Of a stretch of DNA of 36,279 nucleotides, positions 3,245 through 36,279 are shown piece after piece. Source of the DNA: Parcubacteria group bacterium (lineage in GTDB: Bacteria > Patescibacteriota > Minisyncoccia > Phycocordibacterales > 21-14-all-47-15); assembly GCA_016181845.1 (NCBI GenBank), contig JACOYO010000008.1:1-36279 (forward strand), given 5' to 3'. The translations under genes and the position numbers were made by a program. The notes under the pieces were generated by a model that was not told the origin of the DNA, did not search any database, and saw only the letters and a program-made list of their open reading frames with translations. Numbering within the stretch: position 1 is the stretch's first letter; each line of letters starts with the position of its first letter.

Positions 3245-4142
3245 GCATACTCTGAAACCCATCCCAGCTCATGAGAGTCTTGCCCTCCGGCAGGACTTTT
3301 TTGATAATAAAGACTTTATTGTCAAGAATGGCGTCTTTCACGATGACGCGAATTTTTTTGTCGCCTCTTTGGGCGAAAAAATACAACGATGGCCATCCGT
3401 CATACGCGCACCATTTGCGATAAAGCATCTCGGGGTTTTTTTCTAAATCTGAAAGCTCAAATAATCCGTCTTCTTTTTTTATTTTTTTTGTATAGGTTGC
3501 CTTAGCGTGGTCCTGCTCTCGCGGTGTTATGTTTCCAGCGACCCATTCAGGAATAGTCTCCGCGAGGAGCCGTCCCCCCATCTCCGCGAGCGTAGTTTCA
3601 AGCGTCAAACGCTTTATGGGCAATGGCGTATCCAATATTTCTTGCGCAACAATCGGACCATGGTCAAGCTCTTCATCAATAAGCATAATAGTCGTGCCTG
3701 TAACATCGGCTGAGAGAATAGCCGATTGGATAGGCGAGGCGCCGCGGAATTGGGGCAAAAGCGACGGATGGACATTGAGAGCGCCGTGGCGCGGGAGAGC
3801 CAAGATAGTTTTTGGAATAATTTTTCCGTATGCCGCGACTATAAAAAAATCACTATTTATGTTCGCCAGCCTTTCCGGAACAGGCGATAGTGTTTCCGTC
3901 TGAATATACGGTATGGTATTTTTCTCTGCCCATACTTTTACCGGCGGAGGAGTGAGCAAGAGCTTTCGTCCGCGCGGTTTGTCGGGCGCCGTAACAATAA
4001 GCGCGGGCATCAATCCGCGCCGCTTGAGTTCGTCTAAAACAATCACTCCGAATTCCGGCGTGCCAAAAAACACAAAATGATGGGACTTTTTTGATGGAAA
4101 CACATTCATATTACTATGAATCACGAAACTCTTCTTCATCAT
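3237..4142 (-). CDS. fmt: Methionyl-tRNA formyltransferase
   Basis: [39 protein letters not shown]. True start may be internal. Confidence 0.95.
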
Positions 4143-4165
4143 GAGTTTCGTAATTCAAGATCATG

Positions 4166-10478: not shown

Positions 10479-10503
10479 AACTTGGACGTCCGACGTCCAA
10501 GTT
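10479..10503. repeat. Palindrome AACTTGGACGTCCGACGTCCAAGTT
   Basis: Near-perfect inverted repeat with ACTTGG/CCAAGT ends, like other short palindromes in the window. Confidence 0.8.
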
Positions 10504-12914: not shown

Positions 12915-12969
12915 TTTACAAAGGTTCCTCCTTTGTAAGTTATCCACAACGAAGGAGGAACCTTTGTAA
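12915..12969. repeat. Inverted repeat TTTACAAAGGTTCCTCCTT ... AAGGAGGAACCTTTGTAA
   Basis: Arm with CGTTGTGGA extension also occurs at ~12216-12242, so copies flank frr. Confidence 0.75.
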
Positions 12970-16025: not shown

Positions 16026-16070
16026 AGACGTCCGACCTCTGATGTGAAAGATGCCCGACCTCGAACGTCT
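16026..16070. repeat. Rearranged copy of the AGACGTCCGACCTCT repeat family
   Basis: AGACGTCCGACCTCTGATGTGAAAGATGCCCGACCTCGAACGTCT. Confidence 0.65.
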
Positions 16071-26230: not shown

Positions 26231-26259
26231 AAATGTTGGACATCGGATGTCCAACATTT
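26231..26259. repeat. Palindrome AAATGTTGGACAT-cgg-ATGTCCAACATTT
   Basis: 13-bp arms; TTGGACATCGGATGTCCAA differs from the 10479-10503 core (read as reverse complement) by a compensatory pair. Confidence 0.85.
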
Positions 26260-28176: not shown

Positions 28177-28255
28177 AGACGTCCGACCTCTGACGTAGTA
28201 ATTATTTTATTTGTTGCCAATGCCGATGTTTTACTACCGCAGAGGTCGGACGTCT
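28177..28255. repeat. ~79-bp inverted-repeat element, copy 1
   Basis: Perfect 16-bp arms AGACGTCCGACCTCTG 28177-28192 / CAGAGGTCGGACGTCT 28240-28255. Confidence 0.85.
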
Positions 28256-28305
28256 AAATGGCCAATGCCGATGTTTTACCACCGCAGAGGTCGGACGTCT
28301 AAATG
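28216..28305. repeat. 45-bp tandem duplication of the right half of the element
   Basis: GCCAATGCCGATGTTTTAC(T/C)ACCGCAGAGGTCGGACGTCTAAATG at 28216-28260 and 28261-28305. Confidence 0.9.
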
Positions 28306-28540
28306 GCCAAATTCAGTATACCATACAAAAATAAAGGTTCCTCGCTAGCCTACTGCGAGGTATTTAATTGGAACTCGCTTCGTCGTACTCTCCCGATGCC
28401 AAGCATCTGGGTATTAACCTTTGTTAGCTCCTCGGCTCGGTAATGCAAAAGCAAGCTTTTGCATTACGCTCGCTCTACGTCGCTAATAAAAACCCCTCCG
28501 CGTAAATTGGATGTGTTTTTATTTTAAGTTTTTTAAGTTA

Positions 28541-34001: not shown

Positions 34002-34057
34002 GCTGATGATAATAACATATAATAGTGTGAATTACGAAACGCAGATTGAAAGCCAAA

Positions 34058-34138
34058 CAGACGCCCGACCTCTTGATTGGTAAAACATCAGCATTTGCCA
34101 CAAATAAAATAATTACCACATCAGAGGTCGGACGTCTG
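34058..34138. repeat. ~80-bp inverted-repeat element, copy 2
   Basis: CAGACGCCCGACCTCT 34058-34073 / AGAGGTCGGACGTCTG 34123-34138; interior matches reverse complement of copy 1. Confidence 0.85.
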
Positions 34139-34188
34139 AACGGTCAATGCAGATGTTTTATCAGTATGTTCTGTGTTATGATAAAAAA

Positions 34189-34779
34189 ATGTCTTACGTT
34201 ATTGTCGGATTAGGCAATCCTGGAAAAGAATACGAATGCACGCGGCACAACACGGGGCGAATCGCGCTTGATTATTTTGCAACCGCGCATGATTTTTTGC
34301 AATGGCAAAACGACCGGAAAACGCAGGCGCTCATTTCTAACGGCACTATAAAAAAAGAAAAACTACTCCTCTTAAAACCGGAAACATTCATGAACAAATC
34401 TGGCGCAAGCGTCAAGTCGCTTATTACCAGCCCTAAAAAAGCCGCGCAACTGATAGTAATCCATGACGACCTGGATTTGCCGCTCGGCACATTCAAAATC
34501 GTGTTTGGCAGGGGCTCCGGCGGACACCGCGGAATAGAATCAATTATTCGTGCCATTAAAACAAAAGATTTTATTCGTATTCGCATTGGTATTGCGCCAA
34601 CCACGCCAAGCGGAAAGCTTAAAAAGCCAAAAGGGGAGAAAGCAATCATTGATTTTATTATCGGCGCGTTCAAGCCAAAAGAACTGGAAATAATCAAAAA
34701 AACATCAAAATTAATCGCCCAAGCAATTGAAACACTTATTATTGAGGGCAGAGCAGTGGCAATGAATCATTTTAATTAA
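34189..34779 (+). CDS. pth: Peptidyl-tRNA hydrolase
   Basis: MSYVIVGLGNPGKEYECTRHNTGRIALDYF, LLLKPETFMNKSG, VIHDDLDLPLGTFKIVFGRGSGGHRGIESI; TATGAT 6 nt before ATG. Confidence 0.96.
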   Translation: MSYVIVGLGNPGKEYECTRHNTGRIALDYFATAHDFLQWQNDRKTQALISNGTIKKEKLLLLKPETFMNKSGASVKSLITSPKKAAQLIVIHDDLDLPLGTFKIVFGRGSGGHRGIESIIRAIKTKDFIRIRIGIAPTTPSGKLKKPKGEKAIIDFIIGAFKPKELEIIKKTSKLIAQAIETLIIEGRAVAMNHFN

Positions 34780-34801
34780 CTTGGAGGCTGAGCCTCCAAG
34801 T
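34779..34801. repeat. Palindrome ACTTGGAGGCTGAGCCTCCAAGT
   Basis: 22/23 identical to the coding-region palindrome at 36092-36114. Confidence 0.85.
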
Positions 34802-34802
34802 A

Positions 34803-34842
34803 AAACCCCCACTTGGACGTCGGGTTTCCAAGTGGGGGTTTT
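34803..34842 (+). terminator. Terminator hairpin after pth
   Basis: ACCCCCACTTGGA-cgtcgggt-TTCCAAGTGGGGGT then TTTT. Confidence 0.8.
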
Positions 34843-35004
34843 TGCTATAGTTTTCAAGGGAAACGAGATAAGCGAGAAAAAATATATTTATTATTTTTAT
34901 AAAAACGAGAAAAACGTGATTGTATTACTAGGGCGTTCAACTTCTTGGACGTTCAACCTCTTCAATGGCAAAACATCTGTATTTGCACTTAGACGCCCGA
35001 CCAA

Positions 35005-35083
35005 AGACGTCCGACTTCTGAAGTTGTAACACATCGGCATTTGCCACAAATAAAGCAATTACCACATCAGAAGTCGGACGTCT
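35005..35083. repeat. ~79-bp inverted-repeat element, copy 3, with compensatory arm change
   Basis: AGACGTCCGACTTCTG 35005-35020 / CAGAAGTCGGACGTCT 35068-35083; a left-half remnant lies at ~34949-34987. Confidence 0.85.
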
Positions 35084-35286: not shown

Positions 35287-36279
35287 ATGTCAGAAAATGA
35301 CACAACCATTATTATAGACGGGAAAAAATATATCTCATCAAAAAAAGCCGTGAGGCTCACTGGCTACACCAACGACTACATCGGCCAGCTTTGCCGCGCC
35401 GGAAAAGTGCCAGGCAAAGTTTTCAAGCATCGTCGATTTGTTGAGGAGGAATCTCTTTTAACACATGCCAAAAATATCGGGGGAGTGGAAATCAAACCGG
35501 AACAGCATTCATTGCTTAGTCAAGTCAAAAATATATTTCAAAAAATAAAACCGGATATCAAGACAATACCAAAAAAATCCGCGTCAATTTCTATCCAAAA
35601 TACGCAACAAAAAATTACTCCTTCAGAGGTTGATTCATATCTGCCAACACTTGAAATAAAATCGTTGAATGAAAAAGATACACTCACCAACGCCTGGGGC
35701 AGCATCACGTACGCCGAAGAGCCGATGGAAGAGCCGACAGAGACAACGGAGACTGAAAGCGCTCCGTCAGTTCCCGCAATTCATACAAAACCACATGGAA
35801 TGCGCGTTCCTTCTCCCTCGCGTTTTTTTCCTTCAGGATTTTCACACGCGCTTCTTTCAAAAATAGTTTCATCGGTTGCCGTCGTCTCACTCGCCGTGGG
35901 CGGGTATGCTTTTGCCGACACACCGGTCGCGCGGACGCTGTTCGCGCAAGCAAAAAAAACAGCGGCTGACGCAATGACGCATCTTTCGGAAACCGGAAGC
36001 AACCTTTCCGCGTCCGCTCTCGCCATTGCCGAAAACCTCCGCCCGTCTTTTTCGGGAACGCTGTCGTACCAGGCGCCGTTTGCAAACGCCGACTTGGAGG
36101 TTGAGCCTCCAAGTAATTTGGGAACTGCCGACAACTTGGGAGTTAAACTCCCAAGTGGACATCGCAACGAAGAAAAAGTTTTCCCAAACTTCACAAACGC
36201 GCTTTCCTCCGTTTCAGACGGAAGCCGTCAAATACTCGCCGAACTCTTCATCAATATTCCTGTCCGATACAAAACACTC
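35287..36279 (+). CDS. HTH-domain, single-pass membrane protein, C-terminal part outside window
   Basis: Open frame from ATG 35287 to window end, absent from the track because it runs off the edge. N-terminus KKYISSKKAVRLTGYTNDYIGQLCRAGKVPGKVFKHRRFVEEESLL (HTH-like), TM LLSKIVSSVAVVSLAVGGYAFA. Confidence 0.75.
   Translation, partial: MSENDTTIIIDGKKYISSKKAVRLTGYTNDYIGQLCRAGKVPGKVFKHRRFVEEESLLTHAKNIGGVEIKPEQHSLLSQVKNIFQKIKPDIKTIPKKSASISIQNTQQKITPSEVDSYLPTLEIKSLNEKDTLTNAWGSITYAEEPMEEPTETTETESAPSVPAIHTKPHGMRVPSPSRFFPSGFSHALLSKIVSSVAVVSLAVGGYAFADTPVARTLFAQAKKTAADAMTHLSETGSNLSASALAIAENLRPSFSGTLSYQAPFANADLEVEPPSNLGTADNLGVKLPSGHRNEEKVFPNFTNALSSVSDGSRQILAELFINIPVRYKTL
36092..36156 (+). repeat. Two palindromes inserted in frame inside the coding sequence
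   Basis: ACTTGGAGGTTGAGCCTCCAAGT 36092-36114 and ACTTGGGAGTTaAACTCCCAAGT 36134-36156; encode DLEVEPPSN...NLGVKLPSG. Confidence 0.85.

Follow-up and report, generated by a model that had tools for sequence, protein, structure and literature searches.

A dispersed 79-bp hairpin element, probably REPIN-like, in a Patescibacteria genome and the palindromes of RAYT genes in its order

The gap between ftsZ and trxB in the window, that is, the whole analyzed stretch of 36,279 nucleotides, which is the entire contig C9, contains a short inverted repeat that recurs elsewhere on the same contig. This raises the question of what kind of element the repeat is and how its copies were dispersed. The initial annotation called it a MITE-like or REP-like element, probably mobilized in trans. 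The contig belongs to a 742-kb genome (G000; 11 contigs, rated 100% complete), and the host is taken to be an ultra-small, Lloydbacteria-like bacterium. We compared this genome with one of the same genus (G001, 67% complete), with a further member of the family (G002), and with other genomes of the order and phylum.

Copies, nesting and mobility

The initial observation of a dispersed repeat in the window is confirmed, but it was understated. The copies annotated at 28177-28255 and 35005-35083 and the remnant at 16026-16070 are borne out, and the copy placed at 34058-34138 is real with slightly different bounds, whereas the remnant at ~34949-34987 is real and extends further (Table 1). The range first given for the ftsZ/trxB locus, 28177-28305, also takes in a tandem half-copy. 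One arm of the 34059 copy carries two changes (AGACGCCCGACCTCTT). The window neighbors of the element are trxB, ftsZ, lepB and pth.

Table 1. Element copies, fragments and related palindromes in the window
Feature	Position	Strand	Context
Full element, 79 bp	28177..28255	+	gap between ftsZ and trxB, both genes on the - strand
Left arm AGACGTCCGACCTCTG, an imperfect palindrome by itself	28177..28192	+	
Right arm CAGAGGTCGGACGTCT, 16-bp pairing with left arm	28240..28255	+	
Right half-copy in tandem, 45 nt	28256..28300	+	
Truncated third half-copy AAATGGCCAA	28301-28310		directly after the 28256..28300 half-copy
Full element	34059..34137	-	gap between lepB and pth (divergent); adjoins inverted fragment of an older copy
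Older-copy fragment GAACGGTCAATGCAGATGTTTTATCAGTATGTT	34138..34170	+	host of the inserted 34059 copy
Full element	35005..35083	-	downstream of pth
Degenerate right-half remnants	34947..35002	-	adjoin the 35005 copy
Remnant: left half AGACGTCCGACCTCTGATGTG and collapsed copy	16026..16070	+	
Half of second palindrome family GTGAATTACGAAACGCA	34027..34043	-	beside the 34059 copy
Dispersed palindrome ACTTGGACGTCCGACGTCCAAGT	10480..10502	.	kin to the element arm and to palindromes in and around resident RAYT L029
Dispersed palindrome ACTTGGACGTCGGGTTTCCAAGT	34811..34833	.	identical to one within the L029 coding sequence (contig C1)

The genome-wide search that the initial annotation had proposed, run with the 79-bp query, found 27 full copies in G000 and many partial ones (E values from 5e-36 to 2e-14). 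The arm core, allowing at most one mismatch, has 78 matches per strand against 4-7 for the reversed pattern; repetition of the element is far above chance. All 27 full copies are intergenic, in stretches with a coding share of 73-95%. Eight of them fall within short ORFs, which were judged spurious, since their reading frames run across the element. The flanking gene pairs are same-direction for 14 copies, convergent for 5 and divergent for 8 (a tally in which the C2:23057 site was corrected on reading), and local GC skew is too weak to relate element orientation to the direction of replication. Plasmids and phages gave no match. A search with the 16-nt arm in 84,980 named species genomes returned 85 stretches, only one of which, on a Lloydbacteria contig with the same sequence as the G001 site, has a paired arm; the others are single chance matches with the arm unpaired. 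The partner arm is likewise absent from eight matches on viral contigs.

The copies are not generally syntenic with the congener; constant synteny was one of the situations that the initial annotation had named as evidence against a mobile repeat. Only one copy is present in the 400 kb of G001, and none in G002. In the syntenic regions of G001 the element is missing at all three sites of the window copies, and at the 28177 site it is also missing from G002; therefore, the element moves. The intergenic regions at these sites have diverged, so the exact target sequences cannot be read. The sole G001 copy is shared with G000 at C2:23057, between divergent genes, where an intact copy is surrounded by a second copy that is split and more degenerate. 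Such nesting is frequent: 18 of the 27 copies adjoin pieces of older copies, with direct orientation in 13 cases and inverted orientation in 5, and nesting scores are 11-39 against a shuffled maximum of 9. Tandem slippage does not readily account for the inverted cases. A second palindrome family, with ends TTTGAATTACGAAAC, encloses several copies and also exists elsewhere empty of the element. An inverted repeat formed by the flanks themselves is not general; only some of the copies are located within another palindrome. Target-site duplications, which had been suggested as a feature to look for, are absent: none of the 27 copies has an adjacent duplication of at least 3 nt.

Other repeats accompany the element. 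A second dispersed palindrome family, TTTGAATTACGAAACTC ... GAGTTTCGTAATTCAAA (window 4117-4157; L232-L246), has a loop that, depending on the copy, holds almost nothing, the 79-bp element, or a nested structure of 100-200 nt with more palindromes. A further dispersed repeat, the TAATGCAAAAGCAAGCTTTTGCATTA region, lies at 28409-28492 and has relatives at several places in G001. In addition, the minus strand holds a Group I catalytic intron at 1458-1760 (Rfam RF00028, 61 bits).

Anatomy of the element and its relatives in the order

The element is non-coding and consists of two 16-nt ends and an asymmetric interior of ~47 nt, 79 bp in total. The ends pair completely in most copies, a second helix of 6 bp (TGGTAA/TTACCA) lies inside the element, and a C-G pair is jointly changed to U-A in 7 of 24 copies. 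Each 16-nt arm is an imperfect palindrome, AGAcGTC-C-GACcTCT, with one C-C mismatch; therefore, the element consists of two REP-like palindromes in inverted orientation. The mean difference between copies is 5.4% in the arms and 15.1% in the interior.

Using a covariance model built on the G000 and G001 copies, we found full-length relatives of ~80 nt in seven other genomes of the order (G226, G276, G064, G356, G127, G155 and G194), which belong to families f27, f58 and f63, while a few more genomes of the order have short doublets of 39-46 nt only. We aligned 21 elements, 79-83 nt long, from nine genomes, namely these seven and two Lloydbacteria genomes. The alignment reveals interior stretches kept around TTTAGCCA and GTTTTACCA, and ends that vary among GACGTCCGACCTC, GAGGTCCGACCTC, GAAGTCCGACTTC and GAAGCAAGGCTTC. 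The ends still pair in 95% of cells, and 31 of the changes are double, the shifted and shuffled controls being far lower; pair 4/80, for example, is AU in 7, CG in 7 and GC in 7 of the 21 elements. Arm covariation in this alignment reaches 0.295 against 0.099 after shuffling. Pairing within each arm is retained as well (84%) and covaries as such. Comparison of genomes thus shows both the mobility of the element and its structure as a family.

A second model, applied to 380 genomes of the phylum, recovered the full-length copies in G000 and one longer match of 87 nt in another genome of the order, the rest being short hairpins; its matches outside the order are plain short hairpins of 31-34 nt. 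Several copies in G226, G276 and G356 end in TCTTTT, unlike those of G000, and the G226 copies with this ending might act as terminators there.

Palindromes in and around RAYT genes

As initially stated, the window contains no transposase, and the Y1/RAYT transposase to be sought elsewhere does exist: G000 has five Y1_Tnp genes, all on other contigs (C1, C2 and C11). Y1_Tnp genes occur in 89 of 148 genomes in a survey of the order. None was detectable in G001, which has one element copy and is 67% complete. A search of solved structures with one RAYT sequence found nothing.

RAYT genes of the order (L026-L030, L192-L231, L251, L272, L274, L302-L313) are often flanked by a private palindrome of 19-31 bp. 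Frequently, an in-frame copy of it lies inside the gene, at similar positions among genes; its sequence varies from gene to gene and matches the gene's own flanks. Among 61 sampled RAYT genes, palindromes match on both sides in 34 and a matching one is present inside the gene in 20, against 1 and 0, respectively, of 38 control genes. Leaving out two loci that had been chosen for their palindrome, matching 5' and 3' palindromes remain in 33 of 59 RAYT genes and internal ones in 18 of 59.

Perfect palindromes AGACGTCSGACGTCT are present in other genomes of the order, and three of these loci are RAYT genes (L251 of G246, L272 of G106 and L274 of G035), the last with AGACGTCSGACGTCT at both flanks and within the gene. 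These three genes form one clade (support 100/99) together with resident L028 and L029 and two RAYTs that have GAAGC..GGC palindromes. As L251, L272 and L274 were looked up for their palindrome, only their being RAYTs of this clade counts as independent evidence. Four aligned clade members show no variation in the HUH residues or the tyrosine region.

The palindromes of resident L028 and L029 are related to the element arm, but none is identical, and no RAYT in the G000 assembly has the exact AGACGTCCGACCTCT arm. L029 holds ACTTGGACGTCGGGTTTCCAAGT inside the gene on the other strand, and the palindrome at 10480-10502 is a nearer relative of the arm than ACTTGGACGTCGGGTTTCCAAGT is. The L029 palindromes, like the dispersed copies of them, have the core GACGTC[CG]G. 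RAYT genes of the clade carry single, almost perfect palindromes with an ACTT...AAGT foot; the element arms, in contrast, are imperfect, and most of them are without this foot. In another family, the element arms of G064 are AGAAGCAAGGCTTCT, and RAYT L309 of G131, a genome of the same family as G064, belongs to the same RAYT clade and has GGAAGCAAGGCGTCC both within the gene and on either side of it; judged by sequence, the changed arm of this second lineage again resembles a RAYT palindrome. Further dispersed palindromes in the window (26235-26255, 12916-12938, 34779-34801 and 36092-36114) match or closely resemble those of resident RAYTs L027, L026 and L028.

Nature of the element and mode of dispersal

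A REPIN is a doublet of REP sequences that forms a hairpin, with arms less variable than the interior (Bertels and Rainey 2011, PMC3116915). The element resembles REPINs in its inverted, REP-like and conserved 16-mers, which can form one long hairpin across a less conserved spacer, in its length of ~80 nt, and in being dispersed, intergenic and non-autonomous, REPINs being thought to be moved by RAYTs in trans (PMC3116915). It differs from them in lacking the GTAG foot, in an interior motif conserved across families of the order, in nesting of copies both ways, in its Patescibacteria host, and in that no RAYT with the exact arm was found in the assembly. In the 27 copies read, GT[AG]G is absent 5' of the hairpin foot, and GTGG occurs only 3' of the arm palindrome. 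Short palindromes and inverted dimers are also shared with GTAG- and CGTC-tagged REPs, and gene-flanking palindromes unrelated to GTAG with the TIR-associated RAYTs (Di Nocera et al. 2013, PMC3733652). However, the element has neither tag at the defining position: CGTC REPs, which have no associated RAYT (PMC3733652), have an unpaired CGTC at the end and next to it a stem of 8-9 bp, whereas here CGTC lies inside the paired arm. HUH Y1 transposases, hairpin ends and the absence of target-site duplication are common to IS200/IS605 elements, although the mobile unit here is 79 bp and non-coding.

RAYT genes of TnpAREP subclass 2.4 are known to contain in-frame REP insertions (Quentin et al. 2018, PMC6006769), thus the in-gene palindromes described here extend this feature to Patescibacteria. 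RAYT genes that are flanked by REPs and hold in-frame REPs, as in the REPtrons of that subclass, are widespread in the order. The subclass 2.4 REPs have GT[AG]G feet, which most palindromes here lack, and one in-gene palindrome site here lies past the tyrosine motif.

We consider the element to be, with good probability, a REPIN-like non-autonomous mobile hairpin that is dispersed in trans by a RAYT through single-stranded DNA, given its anatomy, the absence of target duplications and the resemblance of its arms to RAYT palindromes in two lineages. The REP-like part of the initial proposal therefore stands, in the form of a REPIN-like doublet, and mobilization in trans is supported by RAYT genes elsewhere in the genome, non-syntenic copies and arms resembling the palindromes of one RAYT clade. 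Nesting in both orientations, the interior conserved in other families and the palindromes within RAYT coding sequences go beyond that proposal. The element is not filed as a canonical REP because it is without the GT[AG]G foot used by the TnpAREP enzymes characterized so far, and the exact arm is found in no resident RAYT. These two features weigh against the RAYT reading, as do the differences between the arms and the palindromes of the RAYT clade and the presence of an element copy in G001, where no Y1_Tnp gene was detected.

It is unlikely that the element is a structured regulatory sequence or RNA (a bidirectional terminator, an mRNA 3'-end protector or a riboregulator) that is retained for its function and moves rarely or never. 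The strong 16-bp hairpin with its compensatory changes, the interior conserved across families, the copy kept between divergent genes in two species and the TCTTTT ends in three genomes would all suit such a function. However, the element is missing at all three congener syntenic sites, older copies hold nested ones in both orientations, gene-pair orientations appear random, the G000 copies are followed by no consistent T-run, and no Rfam match to the element was found in the window and three related loci. Individual copies may have been co-opted for function.

The MITE-like part of the initial proposal, taken as a DDE transposon that has undergone an internal deletion, bears 16-bp terminal inverted repeats and is moved by a DDE transposase in trans, is quite improbable. 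A dispersed, non-coding unit of 79 bp with inverted ends, missing at the congener syntenic sites, does have the outward form of a classical MITE, but a DDE-type element fits poorly because the 27 copies lack target-site duplications and each arm forms a palindrome of its own, with covariation to match; the likeness of the arms to RAYT palindromes in two lineages also speaks against it. Very improbable, finally, is transposase-free spread by recombination, gene conversion or replication template switching between palindromes, which would produce nested and tandem half-copies by hairpin slippage or template switching and a collapsed copy such as that at 16026-16070 by hairpin deletion, but alone does not carry the element to unrelated intergenic sites and leaves the inverted nesting and the likeness to RAYT palindromes unaccounted for.

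For the REPIN-like element, we infer from sequence comparison that a RAYT, an HUH single-tyrosine transposase of the L028/L029 clade, acts on it. Such an enzyme would recognize the element in single-stranded form, excise or copy it as single-stranded DNA, presumably the transposition intermediate, and allow it to be rejoined at another site without duplicating the target, often within existing palindromes, including older copies of the element. The cognate enzyme may be L029, L028 or a RAYT that has since been lost. The TnpAREP enzymes studied so far cut at CT beside the hairpin, and how strictly they need GTAG varies (PMC8266576). The exact cleavage sites in the element would be placed by analogy; its conserved 3' end, TCT, is compatible with a CT cut, which is only a lead.

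A broader, tentative possibility is a modular palindrome system that spans the order, in which an old element of ~80 nt keeps its interior and length and exchanges its REP-like arms as the palindrome specificity changes in one RAYT clade, whose genes hold the same palindrome internally at a fixed position. If this were true, the transposase gene would record its own target, so that its sequence would reveal and predict the specificity.

We found no description of REPIN/RAYT systems in Patescibacteria in the literature searched. Genomes of this group are small and thought to be streamlined; despite this, nested mobile palindromes of several families are present in G000. The RAYT genes holding their own palindrome represent natural enzyme-substrate pairs across the order, thus the recognition and spreading of REPs by RAYTs can be tested by comparison and in vitro.
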